Assembly (NCBI RefSeq): GCF_000332215.1
Contig: NZ_ALWB01000032.1
Coordinates: forward strand, 1 to 32,735
Direction: 5' to 3'
DNA: 32,735 nucleotides
Source: Pseudanabaena biceps PCC 7429
GTDB lineage: Bacteria; Cyanobacteriota; Cyanobacteriia; Pseudanabaenales; Pseudanabaenaceae
How positions within the stretch are numbered: position 1 is the stretch's first letter; each line of letters starts with the position of its first letter. A model generated the notes under the pieces. It ran no database searches. It worked only from the letters and a program-made list of their open reading frames with translations, and was not told the DNA's origin. A program made the translations under genes and the position numbers. Below, piece after piece: positions 1 to 17,583 of this stretch.

Positions 1-56
1 GTTTGCTACGCAAACCCTTTCTCGAAGCCCGTTTCAAATTATCCCGAACTCACGTT
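1..56 (+). repeat. Family A palindromic element, right end (truncated by window edge)
   Basis: The last ~36 bases nearly match the ends of the copies at 17437-17583 (same orientation) and 7068-7204 (inverted). All three share the core TTCAAATTATCCCGAA and end in CACGTT. Here only the right half is visible; the rest lies before position 1. It is the left boundary of the pilin/glycosyltransferase block. No transposase is present, so if mobile the element is non-autonomous. Confidence 0.75.
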
Positions 57-81
57 GTATTAGCACAGCACATAAAAAAAG

Positions 82-120
82 AGGTTTAATTTTGTCCTAA
101 CAAGACTAGCAGCAGCTATA
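82..120 (-). repeat. Solo end of a palindromic element
   Basis: Read on the minus strand, this stretch matches the left end of the composite element at 21082-21240: TATAGCTGCTGC, then CTTGTTAGGACAAAATTAAA with few differences. No partner arm or GC-rich hairpin lies nearby, so it looks like a leftover half-element. It sits in the 5' region of the pilin gene. Confidence 0.55.
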
Positions 121-258
121 TGTTGTGATAAGGAAGATTGCTTCAATATCGAAGCATTAAAATATTTTTTGATCGTTGATATCATTCCGTTTTTTTGTGG
201 GTAAGTTACTTTCACAACCAAACGGTTAACGTTCTTGACATACACGGGATAAAGAATC

Positions 259-900
259 ATGAAATCTGAATTCAAGACCAAGCTCATTCAACACATCCTC
301 AACAAGAAGAATGGCGAAAAGGGCTTCACCCTAATCGAACTTCTCGTTGTTATTATCATCATCGGTATCCTTGCTGCGATCGCTCTTCCTTCTTTCTTAA
401 ATCAAGCTTCTAAAGCTCGTCAATCTGAAGCTAAAACCTATGTTGGCTCTCTAAATCGCGGTCAACAAGCATACTACTTAGAAAAACAACAGTTTGCTCC
501 TAGTCTCGCTACTTTAGCTGTAGGTGTTGCTTTGACTACTGCTAACTATGGTTATACCACTGGTTTCGACACCACATCTGGTGCTCTTGTTGCGGGTAAG
601 AACCAAAGTACCGTTACTAGCGTTGCTATTCCTGGTGCGAGCCAAAATACTCCTGGAGCTTTGGCTGGTGCAGCTACATCAAACCTCAAAGGTTATATTG
701 GCGGTGTAAGTATTTCTACTCCTACTGGCTCCAACGAAGCAACATCCTTGGCAACATTGTGCGAACAAAATCTTGCCCCTGTTAACTCACCCGCTGCTAC
801 TGCTTTATATACAACTAGCTCTGCTTTGACCTTTGCCGCAGCCAGTGCACCTGCTTGTACTATAACTGGTCCTGCAGTACCTTCTACTTCAATTCAATAG
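259..900 (+). CDS. pilA: Type IV pilin (cyanobacterial major-pilin-like prepilin)
   Basis: Structural subunit of a type IV pilus, inserted in the inner membrane and assembled into a fibre used for motility, adhesion or DNA uptake. The prepilin has a 22-residue charged leader ending in Gly22, then the mature N-terminus FTLIELLVVIIIIGILAAIA. The invariant Glu5 and long hydrophobic helix mark a class III signal cleaved by PilD. Two cysteines near the C-terminus could form the D-region disulphide. Mature length would be about 191 residues. The globular part is very rich in Ala, Ser, Thr and Gly, as expected of a heavily O-glycosylated surface protein. It carries one HIP1 site at about 374, the last before an 8-kb HIP1-free stretch. 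Hairpins follow the gene, so it is probably a separate transcript. Two glycosyltransferase genes lie immediately downstream. Family assignment is secure; which pilin paralogue it is remains unknown. Confidence 0.92.
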   Translation: MKSEFKTKLIQHILNKKNGEKGFTLIELLVVIIIIGILAAIALPSFLNQASKARQSEAKTYVGSLNRGQQAYYLEKQQFAPSLATLAVGVALTTANYGYTTGFDTTSGALVAGKNQSTVTSVAIPGASQNTPGALAGAATSNLKGYIGGVSISTPTGSNEATSLATLCEQNLAPVNSPAATALYTTSSALTFAAASAPACTITGPAVPSTSIQ

Positions 901-950
901 TGTGATTTAAATTGGGAAGTTTAATTGGAAGATATTTGTTCGAGTTAATA

Positions 951-974
951 AACAAGTAAAAATATTTACTTGTT
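951..974 (+). terminator. Hairpin after pilA
   Basis: A 10-bp perfect stem (AACAAGTAAA / TTTACTTGTT) with a 4-nt loop, followed by TTAAATT. It is AT-rich and about 50 bases past the pilin stop, so it may be a weak terminator or an mRNA 3' stabiliser. Confidence 0.45.
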
Positions 975-1067
975 TTAAATTCATTCTCCTAATTATTAGT
1001 TTTCCCTCTTTCTAAATCACTTATCATCTTGAAAAATATAATGCTCAAGAGTAATTTATAGATTACT

Positions 1068-1115
1068 ATTAGTTTTGAGAAGCGTATTAAACTAGCTTCT
1101 CAAAACTAATTTTTT
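1068..1115 (+). terminator. Rho-independent terminator downstream of pilA
   Basis: A 16-bp perfect stem (ATTAGTTTTGAGAAGC and its complement), an 11-nt loop, then TTTTT. It separates pilA from the glycosyltransferase genes and implies that they have their own promoter between about 1115 and 1198. Confidence 0.8.
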
Positions 1116-1198
1116 ATGTTTGCATGAAAAATATATTTAATTTTTCTCGGAAACAATTCTAGTGTAAGCTTCTCATTTTTTACTATTCATTAACCTAA

Positions 1199-3409
1199 AT
1201 GTCTTTTCCTTACGAAACTGATTGGGAAAATAACGCTGATAAACTCTTACTTAGTGAAGAATATGCTAGTGCAGCAAAAATTTACGAAGATAAGATTTTA
1301 GTTGAGCCAAATGTTAAGTCGCATTACTGGAAACTAGGAATTTTGCTGCTTCTCCAAGGGCAAGAACTAGAAGCCCATTTTGCTTGGTCGTTGGGAATAG
1401 GCGAAGCTACTTTAGAGGAAGTTAATGAATGGACTGAAGACTTATGTAAGCTCCTCTTGAAAGAGGCTTTAAGGCAAGAAGATTTAAAAAGATATCGCAA
1501 TGCTTGGTTAATTCGTCAACATATTCGTGAAATCGATACAGATAACTTTGATAATTTAGTCCAGATTATTTATCTTTCCCTTCATCTAAAAATACTAACC
1601 GATGAATTGATTCAAGATCTGAAGATACTTGAGATATTAGAGTTAAATCATTCGGGCACAAACATTGAAAATAATTCTGTTCTTCAATTAGTTCAGAATG
1701 TTTTAGCTTCAGATTTGAATTATGAATTACAGCTAGAGATCGTATCTTTAACATTGCCCTATATTAAAGATGTAAGTTGCTTTATTGAATTAATAGCACC
1801 CATAGCCTACAAGCTCAGTGATGTAAATCTAGAAATTGCAACAAAATTTATAAATATTGGTTTAAAAATCAGTCCCAACAACCAAGAATTAATTGGTTAT
1901 CTAGTTGGGTTTTACCTACAATACCAGCAATTCTCAAAAGCTCTAGAAGTTGCTAGAAAAGCTACATCTCGAAATGATAATTTAATAAACAAAATACTGG
2001 CTGATTTTTGTCTTCTAAATGCCCTAGTTAGTGCTGGCGGTAGATGGGAAGAGATCCTATCAGTTTCCCAGCACCAAAAGACTCTTCTTCCATTACTAGA
2101 TTATCAAAATTTTAATGATATAAGTTCTCACCTATTCATTTCTAGATTTTTTGCTCCTTATATTGACGATAATCCCAAAGATATACGCGTAAATCAAAAT
2201 CAAATTTCTAGTCTATGTCTCGAAAAAGTTCAACAGGTTTATCAACAACCAGTTGATTATTTCAAATCTCAAAACCTTTCAAAAAGAAGTAACAGAATTG
2301 TTAAACCTCTAAAAATTGGCTATCTGTCTAATTGTCTGAGAAAACATTCAATTGGTTGGCTTGCAAGATGGTTATTTAGTTTTCATGATCGTGAACAGTT
2401 TCAGATTTACGGTTATTTCCTCAATTACCATCAAAATAACTCAGACCATTTGCAAGAGTGGTACTCAAAACAAGTCTATAAATCTTATAGAGTCGGCATA
2501 GAGTCAATAGGAAGCACTCTTGATATATGCAATCAGATTTCTCAAGATGGAATTGACATTCTTGTCGATCTTGATAGTCTTACCTATATGAATTCTTGTG
2601 AAATTGTCTCTCTTAAGCCTGCTCCTGTTCAAGTAACTTGGTTAGGCTTTGATGCATCAGGAATTCCAGCCATAGATTATTTCATTGCCGATCCCTATGT
2701 TTTACCTGAATCGGCTCAAACATACTATTCTGAGAAAATATGGCGATTACCCCAAACATATATTGCTGTTCAAGGATTTGAGTGTGGTGTTCCTACAATA
2801 CACCGCAGTCAATTAGATATCCCTGAAGATGCTGTTATATATTTCACTGGGCAAAGAGGATATAAGCGTCATCCTGATAATATCCGTTTGCAAATGAAGA
2901 TTCTTAAGAATGTGCCTAATTCTTATTTGTTAATTAAGGGTGTGTCAGATGCTAACTCTACAGAAGAATTGTTTTTTAGACTTGCTGAATCCGAGGGAGT
3001 AGATTGTGATCGCCTAAAATTTCTTCCACTTACTATGTCTGAACTAGAACACCGAGCGAATTTAACAATTGCTGATGTGGTTTTAGATACTTATCCCTAT
3101 AATGGAGCTACTACAACTTTAGAGACTTTATGGATGGGAATTCCGATTGTGACTCGCGTTGGTGAGCAATTTGCCTCAAGAAATAGTTACACAATGATGC
3201 TGAATGCTGGTTTGGTAGAAGGTATCGCTTGGACTGATGAAGAGTATGTTGAATGGGGTGTCAAACTGGGTACAGATAGCCAATTGAGGCTAGAAATTAC
3301 TTGGAAGCTTAAGGAGTCTCGTAAATCCGCTCCGATTTGGAATGCTAGACAGTTCGCGAAAGAAATGGAAAAAGCTTATCAGCAAATGTGGGAGATTTAT
3401 ACAAATTGA
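1199..3409 (+). CDS. TPR / GT41 glycosyltransferase (OGT-SPINDLY-like), first copy
   Basis: Predicted cytosolic glycosyltransferase of family GT41, the family of O-GlcNAc transferase, SPINDLY and bacterial HMW1C. Such enzymes transfer a sugar from a nucleotide donor to Ser/Thr or Asn of a protein. The first ~360 residues are helical, with a TPR-like pair near residues 10-65. The catalytic half starts near residue 370 (KIGYLSNCLRKHS, containing the His expected in the acceptor site). It continues with DILVDLDS (~451), PAPVQVTWLGFDASG (~475), YKRHPD (~554, the conserved Lys of the donor site) and EHRANLTIADVVLDTYPYNG (~616, conserved His and Asp). The next gene is a paralogue starting 2 bases after this stop, so the two are co-translated. 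No clear Shine-Dalgarno is visible. It is AT-rich and free of HIP1. Sugar and acceptor are unknown; the adjacent pilin is the obvious candidate. Confidence 0.88.
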   Translation: MSFPYETDWENNADKLLLSEEYASAAKIYEDKILVEPNVKSHYWKLGILLLLQGQELEAHFAWSLGIGEATLEEVNEWTEDLCKLLLKEALRQEDLKRYRNAWLIRQHIREIDTDNFDNLVQIIYLSLHLKILTDELIQDLKILEILELNHSGTNIENNSVLQLVQNVLASDLNYELQLEIVSLTLPYIKDVSCFIELIAPIAYKLSDVNLEIATKFINIGLKISPNNQELIGYLVGFYLQYQQFSKALEVARKATSRNDNLINKILADFCLLNALVSAGGRWEEILSVSQHQKTLLPLLDYQNFNDISSHLFISRFFAPYIDDNPKDIRVNQNQISSLCLEKVQQVYQQPVDYFKSQNLSKRSNRIVKPLKIGYLSNCLRKHSIGWLARWLFSFHDREQFQIYGYFLNYHQNNSDHLQEWYSKQVYKSYRVGIESIGSTLDICNQISQDGIDILVDLDSLTYMNSCEIVSLKPAPVQVTWLGFDASGIPAIDYFIADPYVLPESAQTYYSEKIWRLPQTYIAVQGFECGVPTIHRSQLDIPEDAVIYFTGQRGYKRHPDNIRLQMKILKNVPNSYLLIKGVSDANSTEELFFRLAESEGVDCDRLKFLPLTMSELEHRANLTIADVVLDTYPYNGATTTLETLWMGIPIVTRVGEQFASRNSYTMMLNAGLVEGIAWTDEEYVEWGVKLGTDSQLRLEITWKLKESRKSAPIWNARQFAKEMEKAYQQMWEIYTN

Positions 3410-3411
3410 TT

Positions 3412-5637
3412 ATGAGTAATGATATTTCAACAACACAGGCATATTATTCATTAACAGCAGGAGACTATATCCATGCTCAAAGTTTATATGAGATGCTAAT
3501 CTCTAGTGAACCTCAAATTAAGTCTCACTATTGGTATTTAGGACTTTCCTTACTACTGCAGGGCAAAGAAGAAGAAGCTCAGATTGCTTGGTTGTCAGGT
3601 ATAGAAGACGATGACATTAGTTACCATGTCGATGAGATCGAACGGTCGACAGAAGAGCTTTGTCAAGTTTTAGAGATTGAAGCTTTGAGGCAAGAGTCGT
3701 TGACAGATTATAAATTGTCTTGGCTTATCCGACAGCATATCAGGGAGATAAATCCCAATCAAATTAATAATCTTCTTAAGTTATTTATACTATCTATTGA
3801 GATAGGTAACTTCAATATTGAAGAGCTTAATGATTTTAGCTTAATTGAGTTAATGCAATTATCAGATAATCAGAATATTGACAGGTTGTTGCTATTAAAA
3901 CTTATTGCTAAAATATTAGAGATTGACCCAAGTAATCCATTATCATTTCAATTTATTTCACAATGCTCTGATTATTACATTTCAAACTCGAATGATTTTA
4001 TTAATGTAGTGAAACCTACGGCTCTTAAAATAGGTTTTGGTCTCAATGACTTTACCCTAGCTGAAAATATGACTGAAGTTTGTCTTGACTTACAACCACA
4101 AAACCTTGAATTGTTAAGTCATTTAGCTGCCTTCTCGCGGCGGAATCTTAATTATACTAAGTGTATTGATACAGCAAATATATATCTGTCTTTGGCTACG
4201 GATCTTCCAAATCAAATTATCGCTACACATCTAATTTTGGAGGCTTTAATGGCAGCAGGTGAAGATTGGGAATCAATTTTTACTGTCAGTAAATCCCAAT
4301 TAGAGTTACTACAAAAACTAATCGAAGACAAGCCTAAATATATAGATGTCAATGTGATTAGTAATTTATTTAATGCTACTTTTTTTCAATCTTATCTTAC
4401 AGATACTCCACAAGCTAATCATTCAATAAGACATAAAATAAACTCTTTATGCCAATCTTATGTTAATCTAATGAAACAGAATTTGCTAAATAAACGCAAA
4501 AAAATTAATATTAATGAAAAACTAGTTCATAATAATAAAATTAAAGTTGGTTACTTGTCTACGTGTCTTCGCAGACATTCCATAGGGTGGTTGTCAAGAT
4601 GGATATTTCAGCATCACGATCACGATCTTTTTTTGGTTCATGCTTATGCCATTTCACCCTTGCCTAACGAAACTGATTCAATCCAAGCGCAAATTGCTTA
4701 TTACTCAGATAAGGCTTACAGTCTTGACTCAAATGTTGAGAATATTATTAACCAAATTTGTCAGGATGAGATCGATATCCTCATCGATCTTGATAGTGTC
4801 ACTGGAGGCTTTATTTGTGAGGTTATGGCTCTTAAACCTGCACCGATTCAAGTCACTTGGCTAGGATTTGATGCTTCAGGTATTCCCGCTATTGACTATT
4901 TTATTGCCGATCCCTATGTCTTGCCGAAAGATGCTCAGGATTACTACTCAGAAAAAATTTGGCGATTACCTAATACTTATATTGCTGTAGATGGTTTTGA
5001 ATTTTCCATTCCCTCTATTTCAAGGGAGCAATTGAATATTCCTGATGATGCTGTTGTTTATCTCTGCACACAAACTAGCTACAAGCGTTTTCCAGATACA
5101 GTTCATCTACAAATGCAAATCATCAATTCCGTTTCTAATAGCTATTTTTTGATTAAGGGATGGGGCGAAGAAGAAGGAACCAAGAGATTTTTCATAGACA
5201 TTGCTAAAAAAGAAGGTGTAAGTGAAGATCGATTGAGGTTTTTGCCCCTAGCCGACAGTGAAGCGGAGCACCGTGCCAATCTAAGAATTGCTGATGTGGT
5301 TTTAGATACCTATCCCTATAATGGAGCGACCACAACGATGGAAACCCTTTGGATGTGTATCCCTTTAGTAACAAAGGTAGGACAACAATTTTCAGCAAGA
5401 AATAGTTATACAATGATGATGAATGTAGGAGTTACTGAAGGGATTTCTTGGACGGATGAGGAATATGTAGAATGGGGAATAAGATTGGGTAAAGATGAAA
5501 ACTTGCGAAAGCAAATATTTTGGAGATTGAAAGAATCTCGTAAAACTTCTCCACTGTGGGATGCAAAGCAATTTACAAAAGATATAGAAAATGCTTATCA
5601 ACAGATGTGGAGTAATTATCTAGCTGAGATAAAATAA
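3412..5637 (+). CDS. TPR / GT41 glycosyltransferase (OGT-SPINDLY-like), second copy
   Basis: Tandem paralogue of the preceding gene with the same layout: a TPR-like N-terminus (~residues 10-70), a divergent helical middle, and a GT41 catalytic half from ~375. It keeps KVGYLSTCLRRHS, DILIDLDS (~453), TWLGFDASGIPAIDYFIADP, YKRFPD (~556) and EHRANLRIADVVLDTYPYNG (~618). The catalytic halves are much more alike than the N-terminal halves, as expected if duplicated enzymes share a donor sugar but recognise different acceptors. I chose ATG 3412 (741 residues), 2 bases after the previous stop. An in-frame ATG at 3388 would only add eight residues overlapping the upstream gene. All catalytic motifs are intact, so neither copy looks like a pseudogene. 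The exact substrate is not known. Confidence 0.87.
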   Translation: MSNDISTTQAYYSLTAGDYIHAQSLYEMLISSEPQIKSHYWYLGLSLLLQGKEEEAQIAWLSGIEDDDISYHVDEIERSTEELCQVLEIEALRQESLTDYKLSWLIRQHIREINPNQINNLLKLFILSIEIGNFNIEELNDFSLIELMQLSDNQNIDRLLLLKLIAKILEIDPSNPLSFQFISQCSDYYISNSNDFINVVKPTALKIGFGLNDFTLAENMTEVCLDLQPQNLELLSHLAAFSRRNLNYTKCIDTANIYLSLATDLPNQIIATHLILEALMAAGEDWESIFTVSKSQLELLQKLIEDKPKYIDVNVISNLFNATFFQSYLTDTPQANHSIRHKINSLCQSYVNLMKQNLLNKRKKININEKLVHNNKIKVGYLSTCLRRHSIGWLSRWIFQHHDHDLFLVHAYAISPLPNETDSIQAQIAYYSDKAYSLDSNVENIINQICQDEIDILIDLDSVTGGFICEVMALKPAPIQVTWLGFDASGIPAIDYFIADPYVLPKDAQDYYSEKIWRLPNTYIAVDGFEFSIPSISREQLNIPDDAVVYLCTQTSYKRFPDTVHLQMQIINSVSNSYFLIKGWGEEEGTKRFFIDIAKKEGVSEDRLRFLPLADSEAEHRANLRIADVVLDTYPYNGATTTMETLWMCIPLVTKVGQQFSARNSYTMMMNVGVTEGISWTDEEYVEWGIRLGKDENLRKQIFWRLKESRKTSPLWDAKQFTKDIENAYQQMWSNYLAEIK

Positions 5638-5725
5638 TATCAAAATTAGCTAATAATGAGATTGTTAGTATTATTTAAACCTCTTTTATAAGATTGGTTA
5701 ATTTGCAAAAATTATAGATTTTAAA

Positions 5726-7033
5726 ATGATAGATCCAAAAGTTAAAATTGTACATGAACAGTTTGATAAGATTCCTTATCCGAATGCTGCTATTGACTTG
5801 TCCTTCCAAGATGATATTAACTCACTATTTAAGTACTGTATAACTACACCACATTATCGACGCTTTCAAAAGGTTGTAAATTCAGAGAAAAAATTAATTT
5901 TAGATGTTGCCTGTGGCACTGGTTTTTTGACTCAAGCATTAGTTCAAGCTAATCCTGGTGCAAAAGTTATAGGAATCGATATCTCGGAGGAATCAATTAA
6001 ATGGGCTAAAAGACGGCTAGAGTATCATGGATATAAAGACGTAGAATTCTATGTCATGCCCTTAGAAGATATACCAAAGTTAGGTTTGTTGTTTGATTTT
6101 ATCCATTGTAACGATACGCTTTATTTATTACCCAATCCAGTAGACGGCTTGAAGGTAATGCGGACGGTTTTAGCTCCTCAAGGAATTATTCAAGGTAATC
6201 TGCATAGTATTTATCAGAGACATTATTTTTATCAAGGACACCAGTTATACAGATTTCTGGGATTAATGGATGACTCGCCTAGCGATATAGAATTCTCTTT
6301 ACTTCGCGAGATTATGAATTCTTTAGATGATAGAGTTATGCTCAAAGAACTAACTTGGAAAGCTAGTTCTGATGATACAACTCTATCAGTCAACTATTTG
6401 TTACAGGAAGATAAAGGTTACACAATTCTACAAATGTTCGAAATAATAAGGGATTCTGAATTGGAATTTATTAGTATGACCAATTGGAATCAGTGGAATG
6501 TTAGAGATTTGTACAAAGATAGAAATAACCCTTCTGAGTACTTGGATATGGTTCTTTCAACCTCTTCTATTGAGGAGAAACTGCAAATTTATGAACTTTT
6601 ACACCCAGTAAATCGATTGTTAGATTTTTGGTGCGGTCATATTGGCGAAGGCGATGTTGTTAATCCTCCAGAAGAATGGACAGATGAAAATTGGCAAAAT
6701 GTTATGGTTTATCTTCATCCTAAGTTGAAACATTCTAAAATTAGAGAATCTTTAGATTTGGCGATATCGCTTTATGCACCATTTAATATTCATGTGTTTC
6801 TAAACATCAATTCTTCGCAGCCGATTAGTTTATATACAACATCTTGCGCTTGTATGCATTTGTTATGGGATAAATCTTTAACAGTGAAGGAATTGACACA
6901 AGAATGGTTAAGAATTAAACCTGTAAATTGGCTAACTAAAGAATCAATAACTGAAAGGCAAGCTTTTTCTGAAATTAAACAAACATTAATAGAGATGGAA
7001 TCACTAATGATCGTGCTACTAGAGATTAGTTGA
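5726..7033 (+). CDS. Class I SAM-dependent methyltransferase, two-domain
   Basis: Soluble methyltransferase with a Rossmann fold near residues 50-165. Motif I is LILDVACGTGF (Asp60 onward), the acidic ribose-binding residue is Asp85 in VIGIDIS, and a DFIHCNDTLYLLPNP segment occupies the motif-IV position. The C-terminal ~250 residues (including LLDFWCGHIGEGDVVNPPEE) form a second region that I do not recognise; bacterial methyltransferases of this layout are often found in polysaccharide or glycoprotein loci. It starts 88 bases after the second GT41 gene on the same strand, so probable co-transcription suggests methylation of the glycan or its acceptor. Codon use is AT-rich like the GT41 genes, with no HIP1. 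No convincing Shine-Dalgarno is seen. The methyltransferase call is firm; the acceptor is unknown. Confidence 0.85.
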   Translation: MIDPKVKIVHEQFDKIPYPNAAIDLSFQDDINSLFKYCITTPHYRRFQKVVNSEKKLILDVACGTGFLTQALVQANPGAKVIGIDISEESIKWAKRRLEYHGYKDVEFYVMPLEDIPKLGLLFDFIHCNDTLYLLPNPVDGLKVMRTVLAPQGIIQGNLHSIYQRHYFYQGHQLYRFLGLMDDSPSDIEFSLLREIMNSLDDRVMLKELTWKASSDDTTLSVNYLLQEDKGYTILQMFEIIRDSELEFISMTNWNQWNVRDLYKDRNNPSEYLDMVLSTSSIEEKLQIYELLHPVNRLLDFWCGHIGEGDVVNPPEEWTDENWQNVMVYLHPKLKHSKIRESLDLAISLYAPFNIHVFLNINSSQPISLYTTSCACMHLLWDKSLTVKELTQEWLRIKPVNWLTKESITERQAFSEIKQTLIEMESLMIVLLEIS

Positions 7034-7067
7034 TTGTCTATATCCGCAGATAGGTTTTAACTTAACC

Positions 7068-7204
7068 AACGTGAGTTCGGGATAATTTGAAGCGGGCTTT
7101 GAGGAAGGGTTACCATTCCTCAAAGCCCAAAAGTAAAGGCTTTGTTTAGCAATGCCTTTACTTTTGGGCTTTTAAAATTTGCCAACTTAACCTGAACTGA
7201 CGTT
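7068..7204 (-). repeat. Family A palindromic element, complete copy
   Basis: A 137-bp element filling the gap between the convergent methyltransferase genes. It begins AACGTGAGTTC and ends GAACTGACGTT, near-perfect terminal inverted repeats. Inside are two hairpins: one around GGGCTTTGAGGAA and one around AAAGTAAAGGC. It is inverted relative to the partial copy at 1-56 and the copy at 17437-17583. Its end overlaps the stop codon of the FkbM gene at 7203-7205. The same two-hairpin architecture with different stem sequence is seen at 17437-17583. Confidence 0.85.
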
Positions 7205-8192
7205 AACTAAATAAGTCTAAATTTGTGGCATGGTCTCGAATTCTCTTGATTACAGGCAAAGAGCTAAGCCCATCTCTAACTAAATCTGGAAATTGAGCTA
7301 ATCCCTCAATTATGTTGTCAGCAAAGTTATAGTTTGGATCTTTTCCATATTCCAGTGTCAGATATTCTAATATTTCTAAAGAATAGTCTGGGAAATTCAT
7401 GATATCAGCAATACAAGCTAACTTTAGCATACGAGATGGTGATTTTAGTTTTCTATCGATATCCTCGCGAATTAGATCGCAAAAATAGAAAGCGTCGCCC
7501 CAGAGTAACTGCCCTGCTCTTACTGTAGAACAAATCGGTGAGCAAGATCGAGGAATTCGATAAGATTTAGATAGATCAAATAACGTGAAATCATATTTTC
7601 TTAAGAATGTATCAACATCAGCAAATAAGGGTTGATTAGTATATAAATGCGAAAATTCAACTTCTATTTGGACAGCTAAAGTACTATGACTTAAGATATT
7701 CTTAGCACCTTCCAAAACATCAAGATCAGCTCCCTGAACATCGATTTGTAGAAAGTCAATTTCACTTATTCCTTCATCTTGACAGAATTGATCTAAAGTT
7801 ATTGTGTCAACCTCAAAGCTGAAATCCAGATTGACAAGTTCTGGAAGTTCCGCTAGTCGCGCTAAATATGGTTCGTTTGGTGGATATAGAGAACTACACA
7901 TGGGATCTTTTGTGACGTAAAGAGTTCTCTCTTCTATGGATTTACCAAGCACTAAAGGAATATGAATTTCTTTCCAGTTGATTTGTCTTGTCTCAAGTTC
8001 AGCATTAGCGGCATCACAAGCATCGGCATCGGCATCAAATCCATAAATACTGAGATTGGGAATAAATATTTGCCACCCCTGACTCGCATAGTCATCTTGA
8101 CTAACTAACTTTCGAGATCCAACATTACAAATCGTCATATGAATTTGATCTAAGATGCCACTCTTTTTTAAACTTGGAAGAAATACTGACAT
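7203..8192 (-). CDS. FkbM-family SAM methyltransferase
   Basis: Predicted FkbM-type methyltransferase, a family that methylates hydroxyls of sugars or natural products. A degenerate motif I (ICNVGSRK) lies near the N-terminus. The FkbM hallmark IDFLQIDVQGADLDVLEGA lies near residue 145, followed by QIEVEFSHLY. The ~100 residues beyond the core contain an extra helical extension. I chose ATG 8192 (329 residues) because AAAGGA lies 7 bases upstream on the coding strand; an in-frame TTG at 8267 would overlap the preceding gene. It lies 43 bases after that gene, another FkbM protein, so the pair is an operon. The stop codon TAA is completed by the adjoining family A repeat. No HIP1 site occurs in the gene. 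The substrate is unknown; the location suggests a surface glycan. Confidence 0.82.
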   Translation of the reverse strand: MSVFLPSLKKSGILDQIHMTICNVGSRKLVSQDDYASQGWQIFIPNLSIYGFDADADACDAANAELETRQINWKEIHIPLVLGKSIEERTLYVTKDPMCSSLYPPNEPYLARLAELPELVNLDFSFEVDTITLDQFCQDEGISEIDFLQIDVQGADLDVLEGAKNILSHSTLAVQIEVEFSHLYTNQPLFADVDTFLRKYDFTLFDLSKSYRIPRSCSPICSTVRAGQLLWGDAFYFCDLIREDIDRKLKSPSRMLKLACIADIMNFPDYSLEILEYLTLEYGKDPNYNFADNIIEGLAQFPDLVRDGLSSLPVIKRIRDHATNLDLFS

Positions 8193-8235
8193 ATACAAAT
8201 CCTTTAACTTTTTTGAATGGTTAGCAAAAACATGA

Positions 8236-9822
8236 TTATTGAATAATGATTCTCTGAGGTAAAGCAATTATATTTAGTCTATTCTGAAAATCACCATTAA
8301 CATCAACAGAAATCAGCTTTTGTAAATATGGCTGATAGCGAAATAGCTGATAACCGATACTTCTAAGAAAATCTGCAACAGGCAAATTACTGCCTTGAGA
8401 ACCTGCAATATTTTCATAGAGAATAATGGGTTTAAATTCAGTAAGAAGGCGATCGCTTCCTTTCAAAACTTGCAGTTCATGCCCCTCGGCATCAATCTTG
8501 AGAAAGTCAACTCGACTTACACCATATTTTTCAATGAGGCTATCTAAAGTAAAACATTCAACTTCTTCAACACTACTCTCGTCTCTAGCTTGTCCATCCT
8601 CTTCAGAAATAAGCTCATTAAGCTCACTGGCTGAGCTAAGAGATAGTTTTGCCCTGCCATTACGATCGCTAGCTGCCCCCGCACAAACTTTTACCCAATC
8701 TAGTTGATTAATTAGGCAAGTTTCGTTTAGATGGGCAACACATTGTGAAAATGGTTCAATAGCTAATACTAAACCCGTTGAGCCAACTCTTTTGGCAGCA
8801 CTGAATGTATAAACGCCAGCATTAGCCCCAACATCAATCACGGTCATTCCTGCTTTAATCCCATTTCGCCAAAACTCCATCTCTCTCTCAAACCAGTCAC
8901 CTTGAGCAACCAGCACTGTCGTCACAATACTATGAAAACTTGGCTCAATAGATAAGACTAAATCTTTTTCAAAATCAACGTAAGTATTTTTGCTTTCTAA
9001 TGCTAATTGCGTCCATTGCCATGCAGCAGTATCACTATTTTGATTTAGACGAATATTATTTGCAGCTTCCAACCAATATCTAGACTTATTGAGATCTCCA
9101 ATACCACGATAACCAAGGTAAAGTGCTTGTAAAATTGGCACATAAAGTGGATGCAATTGTATAGCATGGTGTAAGTGGACAAGTCCTTCGACCTGACCGC
9201 TCATCAATTCTGCAATACCCAGCATTAAACTAATAGTGGGGCTATCGGGAGCAAGTTGATTGGCTAGCCTTAAAAAGCGTATCCCTGAAGAATTGTAAAA
9301 TATAAACTGCGATCGCCATAAAACTTCAGCAAGTAACATTAATGCCTGAGCATAACCGTTGCTTGCATTAAGAATTGACTCAAATTCTATCGATCTTCTA
9401 ACAGACAAAGGTAAGTAAATTAATACTGTAGAAATACTTTCAGAAGATGTATAGATAGGTTGAAATAGATTAACAGCGGTATTTAAAGCTAGGGAGACTG
9501 CCTTACTATCTTCCCCTAACATACTTTGAATAAGAACATAGTGGGCAGCACAATGTGGACTTTGATCTATGCTAAACCCTCTTTCAAGATTCTCTTTTGC
9601 TGATTGAATGAAATTGGCTTTTAGTTCTAGATTTTCAGATTGTTCTGCTTCAATTAAATCTATAACAGCTAAGTTATTCCAATCTGTCGAAGTCTCAGGA
9701 TTATTCCAGTTCGTATTGTCAAAGATTGATTCGAGGAATGACAAAATGTTTGCATCAATGTCAGGGTAATGACTGAAAAGATATTCAAGATAGGTTTCAC
9801 TAGGGGAAGAAAACAATTCCAT
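8236..9822 (-). CDS. TPR-like / FkbM methyltransferase fusion
   Basis: A 528-residue protein in two parts. Residues ~1-300 are alpha-helical with TPR-like periodicity (for example a repeat around LRLANQLAPDSPTISLMLGI). Residues ~305-520 are a full FkbM methyltransferase: TVIDVGANAGVYTFSAA (motif I, ~327), AIEPFSQCVAHL (motif II) and VDFLKIDAEGHELQVLKG (~440). The helical region may bind a protein acceptor, echoing the TPR plus catalytic domain design of the GT41 enzymes on the other strand. It is first in a two-gene minus-strand operon with the FkbM gene that follows. HIP1 sites reappear here (about 8449 and 9310), so this gene looks more native than its left neighbours. ATG 9822 is the only reasonable start. 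Substrate unknown. Confidence 0.85.
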   Translation of the reverse strand: MELFSSPSETYLEYLFSHYPDIDANILSFLESIFDNTNWNNPETSTDWNNLAVIDLIEAEQSENLELKANFIQSAKENLERGFSIDQSPHCAAHYVLIQSMLGEDSKAVSLALNTAVNLFQPIYTSSESISTVLIYLPLSVRRSIEFESILNASNGYAQALMLLAEVLWRSQFIFYNSSGIRFLRLANQLAPDSPTISLMLGIAELMSGQVEGLVHLHHAIQLHPLYVPILQALYLGYRGIGDLNKSRYWLEAANNIRLNQNSDTAAWQWTQLALESKNTYVDFEKDLVLSIEPSFHSIVTTVLVAQGDWFEREMEFWRNGIKAGMTVIDVGANAGVYTFSAAKRVGSTGLVLAIEPFSQCVAHLNETCLINQLDWVKVCAGAASDRNGRAKLSLSSASELNELISEEDGQARDESSVEEVECFTLDSLIEKYGVSRVDFLKIDAEGHELQVLKGSDRLLTEFKPIILYENIAGSQGSNLPVADFLRSIGYQLFRYQPYLQKLISVDVNGDFQNRLNIIALPQRIIIQ

Positions 9823-9874
9823 AATTTTGAAATTAAATTGTAGATTGGCTATTCAAAAGCATACTAATCAAGAA

Positions 9875-9903
9875 TTGAGCCAGAAATGAGAAAACCGTAT
9901 AAT
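9875..9903 (+). promoter_or_regulatory. Sigma70-type promoter of lnt
   Basis: TTGAGC and a perfect TATAAT are separated by 17 bases and end 39 bases before the lnt ATG, in the 120-bp divergent gap between lnt and the FkbM operon. Confidence 0.55.
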
Positions 9904-9942
9904 TACCATACAAGATAATATCCAAGATAGTCTGGCTTTCCT

Positions 9943-11538
9943 ATGCAAAATTTGCAAAATCTTCTGTTTGCTGCCCTTGGGGGGCTGTTGATGGGACTGA
10001 CTCCCGATCCCTTTGGTCAATGGTGGCTGGCGTGGATTGCGCTGATGCCTTTGTGGATGTTGGCTCAAAGGCTGAAAGTGAAGGCAGCGATCGCAATGGG
10101 AGTGATGTGGGGATTTTGCTATCACAGTATGGCTTTATTTTGGATTACATCTGTACATCCAATGGAGTGGATGGGTGTGCCTTGGTGGAATAGTTTTTTG
10201 ATTGCTACATTAGTTTGGTTGTTGATTGCGGGATGGGGGGCAGTATTATCGGGGTTATGGGCAGGGGGGATGGCATTATTTACTCAGAAATTGAAGGTGC
10301 CGAGTCGGCTGGTTATTGCCTGTGCGATCTTTAGTGGTTTGGAGATTGTTTGGAGCTGGGGACCTCTCTATTGGACAGCACTAGGTTATACCCAGAGTCC
10401 TCACGATCTATTACTTCTGCAAGTCAGTCGTCTCTCTGGTCAGCAAACTATGACTTCCGCGATTGTGGCTGTTAATGGATTGTTGGCAGAAACTCTTTTG
10501 CAGAAAACTTGGCGCGATCGCTTTGCCTCAGCAAATCATCAGGTAATAATTACGCCGTTGCTTGGTTTTGTAAAACAATGGCGCTATGCGATCGCTGTAA
10601 TTTTGCTTGTATTAGCAATGGCTGGTTATGGCGCATGGGAAATGCAAAGCGATCGCATGGCAAGCACAAATGGCAAAGCGATCAAAGCAGGTATTATTCA
10701 GGGTAACTTCCCGAATATCCTGACGGTTTTACCAAGAGGATGGGAAATTGCCGTTGATAACTATACTAAGGGCTATGAAAAGTTGGCTCAATCTGGAGCG
10801 GAAATGATCGTTACACCTGAAACGGCGATTTCCTTTCTCTATCCAAATTACGATGCGCGTCGCGAACCTTTCGATCGTGCGGTTGAGAAATATCGCGTGC
10901 CCGTATGGCTAGGAGGTTTTGGTAAGACCCGCAATCCGAATACTGAAGATCCAAATAATTACACAAATAGTCTCTTTCTAATTGATGGTTCTAATCAGAT
11001 TCTCAGTCAATATGACAAGGTTCGCCTCGTGCCAGTAGGCGAATATATTCCATTTAAAGCAATTTTAGGAGGTCTAATTAAGCGTCTATCACCACTGCGC
11101 GGAGAAGTGGAGGCTGGTTCGAGCGAGCAACTGGTCGATACACCTTGGGGGCGGTTTATCTTGGGAATCTGTTATGAATCCGCCTATCCAGCTACCTTTC
11201 GATTTCAAACTGCCGCAGGTGGGAAGTTAATTCTCTCCGCTTCCAACAATGCTCATTTTGCTTCCTACATGTCAGCCCAACACCATGCCCAAGATGTCGC
11301 TAGAGCCATCGAAAGCGATCGCTGGGCGGTAAGGGCTACCAATACTGGCTATTCAGGCTTTGTCGATCCCAATGGGCGGACGATCTGGCTCTCGCAGGTC
11401 AACACCTACGAAACCCATGCAGAAACAGTCTATTTAAGGGATACGAAGACTCTCTATGTGCTCTGGGGCGATTGGATGACCCCTTTACTTGGTGTCACGA
11501 GTATTGCTATTTATGCCAAACATCGCTTTATGAATTAA
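9943..11538 (+). CDS. lnt: Apolipoprotein N-acyltransferase
   Basis: Inner-membrane enzyme that adds the third acyl chain to the N-terminal Cys of lipoproteins, the last step of lipoprotein maturation. The N-terminal ~230 residues carry several hydrophobic membrane segments (MGLTPDPFGQWWLAWIALMP onward). A nitrilase-like periplasmic domain follows at ~250-500. The Glu-Lys-Cys triad is present: Glu in TPETA (~292), Lys in YDKVRLVPVGEY (~359) and Cys in GICYES (~410). Length (531) is typical. Cyanobacterial Lnt is often divergent, but all hallmark residues are here. It is monocistronic: divergent from the FkbM operon and followed by palindromic repeats. HIP1 is frequent in it (five sites). A lipoprotein gene with a clear lipobox lies 4 kb downstream. 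Confidence 0.93.
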   Translation: MQNLQNLLFAALGGLLMGLTPDPFGQWWLAWIALMPLWMLAQRLKVKAAIAMGVMWGFCYHSMALFWITSVHPMEWMGVPWWNSFLIATLVWLLIAGWGAVLSGLWAGGMALFTQKLKVPSRLVIACAIFSGLEIVWSWGPLYWTALGYTQSPHDLLLLQVSRLSGQQTMTSAIVAVNGLLAETLLQKTWRDRFASANHQVIITPLLGFVKQWRYAIAVILLVLAMAGYGAWEMQSDRMASTNGKAIKAGIIQGNFPNILTVLPRGWEIAVDNYTKGYEKLAQSGAEMIVTPETAISFLYPNYDARREPFDRAVEKYRVPVWLGGFGKTRNPNTEDPNNYTNSLFLIDGSNQILSQYDKVRLVPVGEYIPFKAILGGLIKRLSPLRGEVEAGSSEQLVDTPWGRFILGICYESAYPATFRFQTAAGGKLILSASNNAHFASYMSAQHHAQDVARAIESDRWAVRATNTGYSGFVDPNGRTIWLSQVNTYETHAETVYLRDTKTLYVLWGDWMTPLLGVTSIAIYAKHRFMN

Positions 11539-17438: not shown

Positions 17439-17583
17439 CGTCAGTTCTGATTAAGTTAGCAAATTTTAAAAGTCCACAAGTAAAAGCCTTGCGTAGCAAG
17501 GCTTTTACTTGTGGACTTTGAGAAAGGGTTTGCGTAGCAAACCCTTTCTCAAAGCCCGTTTCAAATTATCCCGAATTCACGTT
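17437..17583 (+). repeat. Family A palindromic element, complete copy (147 bp)
   Basis: It begins AACGTCAGTTC and ends GAATTCACGTT. Two internal hairpins are AAGTAAAAGCCTTG / complement and GAGAAAGGGTTTG / complement. Its first two bases are the last two of the lipoprotein stop codon TAA (17436-17438), mirroring the copy at 7068-7204. The flanks read TA on both sides of ACGT...ACGT, compatible with a TA target duplication. Confidence 0.85.

Follow-up and report, generated by a model that had tools for sequence, protein, structure and literature searches.

Results

Gene content and layout of the locus

The window, that is the whole stretch of 32,735 nucleotides analysed here, stems from a genome of the Pseudanabaena group. 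At its left end lie six locus genes, every one of them an intact ORF of the stated family according to Pfam and TIGR profiles. This bears out the gene set of the initial annotation, which comprised a pilin, two GT41 proteins, a SAM methyltransferase and an FkbM pair on the opposite strand. The locus and its borders contain the following features:

1-57, plus strand: copy of a dispersed repeat at the contig start (repeat search), left border of the pilin-GT41-MT block
259-900, plus strand: type IV pilin of 213 aa (Pilin_GH, N_methyl), the inner, variable pilin of the cassette, covarying with GT41
1199-3409, plus strand: GT41a, 736 aa, with a helical-repeat (TPR-like) arm and a GT41 catalytic domain
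3412-5637, plus strand: GT41b, the second GT41 protein, 741 aa (PF13844), falling in the split_b clade
5726-7033, plus strand: MT, class I SAM methyltransferase of 435 aa with the full-length PKMT/Rv2067c fold
7067-7111, minus strand: the dispersed repeat again, in inverted orientation with respect to 13-57, bounding the pilin-GT41a-GT41b-MT block on the right
7203-8267, minus strand: FkbM1, FkbM methyltransferase (PF05050 and TIGR01444 above cut-off)
8236-9822, minus strand: FkbM2, FkbM methyltransferase (PF05050 and TIGR01444 above cut-off) whose N-terminus is extended by about 320 aa
9943-11538, plus strand: Lnt (TIGR00546), conserved right flank outside the cassette, 97% identical in the nearest relative

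The repeat arms at 13-57 and 7067-7111 are 45 nt long and 93% complementary, and the repeat that borders the block has 145 core matches in its own genome. GC content is 31-40% across positions 1-10000 and mostly 40-50% beyond, dropping at the cassette border. Neither tRNAs nor RNA families at gathering score were found within the window, and a promoter and terminator scan of the window gave no surplus as compared to shuffles.

The pilin matches Pilin_GH (E 8e-23) and N_methyl (E 3e-9), both above cut-off, and carries a GFTLIE cleavage site. It had been described as a Ser/Thr/Ala-rich type IV pilin. The assignment as a pilin stands; its richness in Ser and Thr is not extreme, with 44 such residues in a mature part of 191 aa. 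Counted after residue 25, the median Ser+Thr fraction is 0.232 for inner pilins (n=24) versus 0.178 for outer pilins (n=16), while inner and outer pilin of the window's own genome are almost equal (0.25 versus 0.24). The pilin has no C-terminal Lys, and 22 of 24 inner pilins of the genus have Gln or Asn at the C-terminal end. The outer pilin of the window's genome is found on another contig, C2 (59,472 bases), in its interior and not at the contig end. A contig break as the cause of the absent upstream outer pilin was therefore rejected. Since, moreover, the genes following the outer pilin on C2 do not match the loci adjoining the outer pilin of relatives, either the cassette has been relocated or the assembly is chimeric.

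GT41a and GT41b match PF13844 with 196 and 189 bits, respectively (cut-off 25). The ATG of GT41b lies 2 nt past the stop codon of GT41a; in a related genome, G016, a GT41 ORF overlaps the inner pilin. By alignment, both proteins keep the catalytic and UDP-binding residues H383, K556 and H618, the reference residues being H498, K842 and H901 of human OGT. Tetratricopeptide repeats had been ascribed to both GT41 proteins. Pfam detected no TPR in either of them at E 0.01; for GT41a, the AF2 model (mean pLDDT 80) supports such an arm, a helical repeat spanning approximately residues 9-364, and matches full-length SPINDLY (SPY) and OGT entries with TMq 0.46-0.59. Rather than a second transferase, GT41b might be a partner or pseudo-enzyme of GT41a. 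Its counterparts in eight other tandem genomes have 619-651 aa and are thus about 100 aa shorter than the window's, and in G016 Asn replaces the catalytic His. The window's GT41b, full length and with every tested residue kept, makes such a role improbable here.

Linkage of GT41 and pilin genes

Related loci number at least 574, and of the 80 best, retrieved with a query built from GT41s already known near pilins, 75 have a pilin gene in the same orientation no more than 1 kb away. This set overlaps the genus genome set (L099, L112, L123, L129, L139, L140), and two of its loci (L105 and L113) belong to one MAG. A linked pilin is present in 24/25 cassettes of the genus and, within about 1.1 kb and as read by eye, in 9/11 GT41-bearing genomes of other families. 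GT41 profile matches scoring at least 350 are pilin-linked in 105 of 155 cases, counting second copies and cut-off loci. None of 30 matches scoring below 250, some of which are not GT41 whatsoever, is linked to a pilin. The check for pilin-GT41 linkage in cyanobacterial genomes, proposed together with the initial annotation, hereby yielded a conserved association.

The window's two GT41s are the only strong matches in their own genome, besides one partial match of 27 bits elsewhere. They might thus serve several substrates as a general OGT for other cytosolic or surface targets, the pilin being merely a neighbour. This is very unlikely in view of the phylum-wide pilin linkage, the selective co-divergence with the adjacent pilin described below, and the Ogt-dependent PilA glycosylation reported in excerpts of PMC12288463 and PMC9260433. 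Conserved linkage, co-divergence and intact catalytic residues instead make it very likely that the GT41s are dedicated to the pilin, as had been suggested for this locus. This is known in principle; a pilA-adjacent GT41 serving the pilin is an already published idea and no novelty.

Divergence and tree conflict of the cassette

As compared to the nearest relative (G004), Lnt of the window is 97% and ApcE 99% identical, GT41a only 54%. In species pairs with backbone DNA identity of at least 90%, the median identity is 57% for GT41 (22 pairs) and 69% for the inner pilin (19 pairs), and the flanking genes GH19 and AAA reach 91% (12 pairs) and 90% (16 pairs). Lnt reaches 96% in close pairs, partly by construction since Lnt itself enters the backbone measure; a fairer yardstick is given by the flank genes. 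Variability extends to the outer pilin (median 72% in close pairs) and, to a fair degree, to two left-flank genes (74% and 78%).

GT41 occurs in relatives in single, tandem (split) and fused double forms, at odds with the species tree, for which the DNA of two backbone genes, ApcE and Lnt, served as proxy; Lnt lies near the cassette in several species. Strain UWO311 (L123), a cultured Pseudanabaena, has the tandem form. The backbone tree omits G015, which is 76% complete and yielded no GT41, and G006, whose Lnt is split in two; G039 lacks a pilin on its contig piece, and the outer pilin of G000 was taken from contig C2. The ApcE+Lnt tree requires at least five changes of the fused form, and a poorly resolved tree from Lnt alone requires seven. 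The GT41 tree, which omits ten divergent GT41-like rows and includes Nostoc L080, sorts by form except for the long-branched N unit of G003 and three singles. That the fused form is nothing more than GT41a joined to GT41b was rejected, its C half being a separate, distant clade.

Instead of exchange, an ordinary, fast-evolving conserved pilA-ogt locus might have given rise to these forms by repeated fusion, loss and rate acceleration. Forms do cluster on the backbone tree more than shuffled labels, only 10 of 500 shuffles being as low for the fused form. Three findings argue against this reading, which we consider unlikely: the fused C unit forms a distant clade (branch 2.03) and is not a fused GT41b; GT41 and pilin of G018 are closest to those of the distant species G007 (backbone 78%, GT41 80%, pilin 88%), whereas split forms are present in G008 and G016, which are closely related to it; and GC content falls at the cassette border. 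A divergent core, conserved flanks and a tree in conflict with that of the species, as in a serotype-like exchange locus, were all found here.

GT41 divergence follows that of the inner pilin (partial r 0.71, 0/1000) far more than that of the outer pilin (0.18, 30/1000), also when restricted to the common 17 genomes (0.73 versus 0.20); nor does it go with the flanks. By form, the correlation is lower in genomes with split or single GT41s (r 0.40, 18/2000, n=11) than in those with fused ones (0.88, n=12). The TPR-like part (0.68) and the catalytic part (0.69) covary about equally with the pilin, so the signal is not specific to the arm. Joint transfer of neighbouring genes that are not functionally paired could likewise cause co-divergence.

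The methyltransferases

In structure comparison, the model of MT aligns with Rv2067c of M. tuberculosis (8hkr_A, 378 residues) over 369 residues at Z 30.1 and with Rickettsia PKMT1 and PKMT2 over the full length at Z 21.6-23.4. Other structures reach at most Z 18.4 over about 190 residues. Sequence comparison with the PDB likewise ranks Rv2067c first (E 4e-13), although identity in the structural alignments with Rv2067c and the PKMTs is 13-18% and these enzymes have other substrates. The N-terminus of MT is a generic SAM domain, and its C-terminal part is shared with the PKMT/Rv2067c fold. We found no published account of this full-length match to protein lysine methyltransferases, a fold by which MT more likely acts on a protein lysine.

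Of 61 named loci whose flank is long enough, 31 have a member of the MT family immediately upstream of the pilin. In a phylum sample of 30 MT loci, which includes the window itself (L225) and the overlapping pairs L222/L240 and L226/L239, 12 are beside pilins, 7 of them without GT41 in the short flank. This frequent position upstream of pilA elsewhere in the phylum makes MT a candidate pilin lysine methyltransferase. A C-terminal Lys as its target was rejected: Lys among the last four pilin residues shows no association with MT in the locus (23/40 versus 19/40, p 0.50), and inner pilins of the genus mostly end in Gln or Asn. Methylation of a glycan or small molecule would agree with this independence, with the absence of a C-terminal Lys from the window's pilin, with the generic SAM domain and with the Pseudanabaena loci read, where MT is near Lnt or FkbM2 and not upstream of the pilin. 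It agrees less well with the structural match, which extends over the full length for protein lysine methyltransferases only, and with pilin adjacency in loci short of GT41, and we regard it as a serious possibility somewhat below an even chance. From the model and gene neighbourhood, we give action of MT on a pilin lysine a nearly even chance.

FkbM1 is listed with a TTG start; its true start may be 12-19 codons further downstream, as alignment begins only at residues 13-20 for 7 of 10 full-length relatives. FkbM2 overlaps FkbM1, and the two likely form one operon. FkbM2 also has an RfbT match below cut-off (E 4e-4). Either FkbM gene occurs within 5.5 kb downstream in 18/68 named loci, a count including some ORFs of about 1,260 aa with FkbM as best profile; many cassettes have neither nearby. 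By family alone, FkbM1 and FkbM2 would fit sugar O-methylation. The first proposal, in which all three methyltransferases contribute to an O-methylated glycan, is not supported as stated, the fold of MT being that of a protein lysine methyltransferase; such a glycan on the pilin is putative.

Discussion

Pilin glycosylation in Pseudomonas aeruginosa and Neisseria is carried out by the membrane oligosaccharyltransferases TfpO and PglL, which share the substrate class with the system described here and differ from its GT41s. Closer is the Ogt-PilA locus of S. elongatus (Synpcc7942_0051) and Nostoc punctiforme, likewise with a GT41 gene beside a pilin gene. Excerpts of a 2025 review (PMC12288463, citing Khayatan 2017 and Suban 2022) place an ogt gene, involved in PilA glycosylation, beside pilA in many cyanobacteria, and Ogt-dependent glycosylation is reported for Synechococcus elongatus (excerpts of PMC12288463, PMC9260433 and PMC12647202). 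The present locus differs from it in having two GT41s (in relatives one, two or a fused double), an FkbM pair and a PKMT-fold enzyme nearby, and in exchange between species. Caulobacter FlmG, too, is a TPR-containing O-glycosyltransferase of the cytosol that is specialised for a filament subunit, and its substrate specificity derives from the N-terminal TPR domain (excerpt of PMC7591256); it acts with flagellin and pseudaminic acid, in contrast to a pilin and a predicted sugar here.

We conclude that the locus belongs to the known pilA-ogt type of cyanobacteria, as a cassette for pilin decoration in exchanged form. That its GT41s decorate the adjacent pilin and that the cassette passes between species of Pseudanabaena in the manner of a serotype locus we hold with fair confidence; of pilin and GT41 as such a cassette in Pseudanabaena we found no published account. 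Before export, the cytosolic GT41s of Ogt type would bind the adjacent prepilin, probably via the TPR-like arm, and each would add sugar to Ser/Thr of the pilin globular domain, the two acting on different sites or sequentially. FkbM1 and FkbM2 may O-methylate the sugars and the PKMT-fold MT may methylate a pilin lysine. The sugar, the sites, the substrates of FkbM and MT and selection by phages or grazers are predictions. More tentative, and somewhat doubtful as a whole, is the combined proposal of exchangeable 'pilotypes', in which a pilin and its own GT41, be it single, tandem or fused double, would move jointly from species to species as matched pairs, together with the PKMT-fold protein as pilin lysine methyltransferase working on that subunit too.

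Cyanobacteria use type IV pili to move, to take up DNA and to control biofilms. That Synechocystis PilA1 carries trimethylated lysine is known since 2011, and the excerpted literature on it shows no lysine methyltransferase for PilA1. A concrete candidate for such an enzyme is the protein with the PKMT fold; in Synechocystis, PMC12313861 describes sll1693 as a methyltransferase belonging to the pilA1 operon. Where a pilin is replaced together with its own cytosolic glycosyltransferase, nature supplies a series of enzyme-substrate pairs, some matched and some mismatched. Acceptor recognition by GT41 thereby becomes directly testable, which is relevant to OGT and SPINDLY too. Cassette exchange predicts serotype-like variation of the pilus, selectable by phages or grazers. 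If true, the glycan identity of the pilus would be switched by cassette replacement, in the fashion of an O-antigen.

Organisation and conservation of the locus

The six genes described in the initial annotation, i.e. a pilin, two GT41 glycosyltransferases, a SAM methyltransferase (MT) and two FkbM methyltransferases, are all intact ORFs of the families claimed:

259-900, + strand, pilin
1199-3409, + strand, GT41a
3412-5637, + strand, GT41b
5726-7033, + strand, MT
7203-8267, - strand, FkbM1
8236-9822, - strand, FkbM2

A gap of 2 nt separates the GT41a stop from the GT41b start, and the mutually overlapping FkbM genes are oriented towards MT. Lnt and PsaD are the right-hand neighbours in the window. 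GC content is 31-40% over positions 1-10000; further to the right it is mostly 40-50%.

The proposed linkage of pilin and GT41 genes is present across cyanobacteria. Named genomes yielded at least 574 GT41 loci; of the 80 best, 75 have a same-strand pilin within 1 kb of GT41, a count biased towards one clade, the query alignment having been made from GT41s near pilins. Less biased is the count within the genus, where a pilin lies directly upstream of GT41 in 24 of 25 genomes with a cassette; the locus of the sole exception, G039, stops at a contig edge. In other families, 9/11 GT41 genomes carry a same-strand pilin about 1.1 kb or nearer to one copy, as judged by eye for the copies inspected. 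Counts for matches to the GT41 profile cover the low (<250) and high (≥350) score bands: a pilin is near 105/155 high-scoring matches, second tandem copies and cut-off loci included, and near 0/30 low-scoring ones, some of which are not GT41.

Cassette forms

The 25 genus cassettes comprise 9 tandem, 3 single and 13 fused forms. Each fused protein is about 1,500 aa long and contains two GT41 units; the C half belongs to a clade of its own, distant from the rest, and its donor-loop residues are altered. The mature inner pilin, which directly adjoins GT41, is longer in tandem cassettes (191-206 residues); in the 15 other cassettes it has 163-181 residues, apart from one of 197 (p 4e-4, uncorrected for descent). 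Upstream of the fused double GT41 at locus L049 (G020) lie three consecutive pilin genes (4929-7134). One protein near a single-GT41 cassette (L031, 11125-12915) matches both an exostosin-type GT47 and a methyltransferase, L049 contains a GT4 and other cassettes contain further methyltransferases; accessory content is therefore variable.

Residues aligned to the catalytic and UDP-binding positions H498, K842 and H901 of human OGT are kept in GT41a and GT41b, as is the TTT loop, and by these residues both enzymes look active. The AF2 model of GT41a (mean pLDDT 80, several active-site loops <50) combines a helical arm with a GT fold, its best PDB matches being SPINDLY and OGT. GT41b of G016 (L045, 9796-11655) has Asn at the expected catalytic His position and a helical arm shorter by about 100 residues; it is possibly an inactive partner.

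Genome position

In 17/24 relatives the 2.5 kb upstream of GT41 also contain a second, outer pilin, preceded by a conserved block wherever the contig extends far enough. Unlike most relatives, the window genome (5.47 Mb, 464 contigs) has its cassette on contig C32, the window, and its outer pilin (L182, 10802-11380) with the conserved upstream block on contig C2, where different genes come next. The window contains three copies of a dispersed repeat:

1-57, dispersed repeat copy
7067-7111, dispersed repeat copy
17520-17583, dispersed repeat copy

Allowing at most 2 mismatches, the genome has 145 copies of its 24-bp core (reversed-pattern control, 0). The repeat seems to break the assembly, since at least 13 of the listed copies are within 81 bases of a contig start. 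Inverted copies of the repeat flank the pilin-GT41a-GT41b-MT block, and recombination between copies could have relocated this block; misassembly is another possible explanation for the separation of cassette and outer pilin.

Divergence between species and pilin-GT41 pairing

Between the window genome and its nearest relative, G004, identity is 97% for Lnt and 99% for ApcE versus 54% for GT41a, 41% for MT and about 70% for the FkbM proteins. Medians over close species pairs (ApcE+Lnt DNA identity ≥90%) are listed below.

Median identity in close species pairs
GT41: 57% (22 pairs)
Inner pilin: 69% (19 pairs)
Outer pilin: 72% (13 pairs)
Flanking GH19: 91% (12 pairs)
Flanking AAA: 90% (16 pairs)
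Two further left-flank genes: 74% and 78%
Lnt protein: 96%, partly by construction

Within GT41, the arm is the most variable part (43%) and the C-terminal catalytic half the least (73%). On the backbone (ApcE+Lnt) tree the fused state requires at least 5 changes, and forms cluster above shuffled labels; the GT41 tree groups by form, except for the long-branched N unit of G003 and the three singles. The fused-form G018 is nested among tandem species on the backbone tree, but both its nearest GT41 (80%) and its nearest pilin (88%) are those of G007, at a backbone identity of just 78%. Together with the lower GC content of the first 10 kb, these observations point to probable exchange of the cassette between species.

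With backbone similarity held constant, partial correlation and permutation link GT41 similarity to that of the adjacent inner pilin (r 0.71, 0/1000 permutations), weakly to the outer pilin (r 0.18, 30/1000) and significantly to none of eight flanking genes (partial r -0.23 to 0.27). In an identical set of 17 genomes, r is 0.73 for the inner versus 0.20 for the outer pilin; by subset, the inner-pilin value is 0.88 in fused (n=12) and 0.40 in tandem and single cassettes (n=11, 18/2000). This covariation is about as strong for the arm as for the catalytic part, hence the arm is not singled out as the matched part. Co-transfer of pilin and GT41 without functional matching is a possible alternative.

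Methyltransferases

METHYLTRANSFERASES
FkbM1 (≥67% identity) is found in 11/26 genus genomes, in 10 of these at the GT41 cassette, and FkbM2 (≥43%, full length) in 12 of the 26, in 11 at the cassette; G014 is the single exception for both. Within 5.5 kb downstream, 18/68 named loci have either FkbM and 10/68 both. In 31/61 named loci with enough flank, the gene immediately before the pilin, on the same strand, is a member of the MT family; in the Pseudanabaena loci inspected it is not upstream of pilin, being located near Lnt or FkbM2 and, in the window, after GT41b. The family is present in 28 of 117 sampled phylum genomes; a same-strand pilin lies within 1.5 kb of 12/30 MT loci from this sample, and 7 of these 12 have no GT41 within the same short flank.

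The AF2 model of MT (pLDDT 91) aligns over its full length to Rv2067c (Z 30.1, 369 residues) and to Rickettsia PKMT1/2 (Z 21.6-23.4); for the other methyltransferases listed, Z is ≤18.4 over about 190 residues. Synechocystis PilA1 carries a trimethylated C-terminal lysine according to reviews citing Kim 2011 (PMC7076178, PMC4390875), and a 2025 letter describes Sll1693 of the pilA1 operon as a methyltransferase that may take part in methylating pilin (PMC12313861). Presence of MT in the locus showed no association with a C-terminal pilin lysine, and the window pilin lacks this lysine; both count against a C-terminal target. A second PKMT-fold methyltransferase, about 40% identical, is encoded in the window genome (L172, 3248-4633), on the 5.5-kb contig C282, where no pilin was recognised.

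Relation to known pilin glycosylation

Word searches of the open-licence literature found no report that pilin and GT41 are exchanged and diverge together, that double GT41s occur as fusions or that a pilA-adjacent methyltransferase has the PKMT fold. A 2025 review (PMC12288463, citing Khayatan 2017 and Suban 2022) places an ogt gene next to pilA in many cyanobacteria and gives it a role in PilA glycosylation. The contrast drawn initially with oligosaccharyltransferase routes is fair; it is not new, since glycosylation of PilA by Ogt in Synechococcus elongatus is already in print, as stated in PMC9260433 and PMC12647202, both citing Suban 2022. The locus is genuine and conserved, very likely serves pilin glycosylation and belongs to an already known type.
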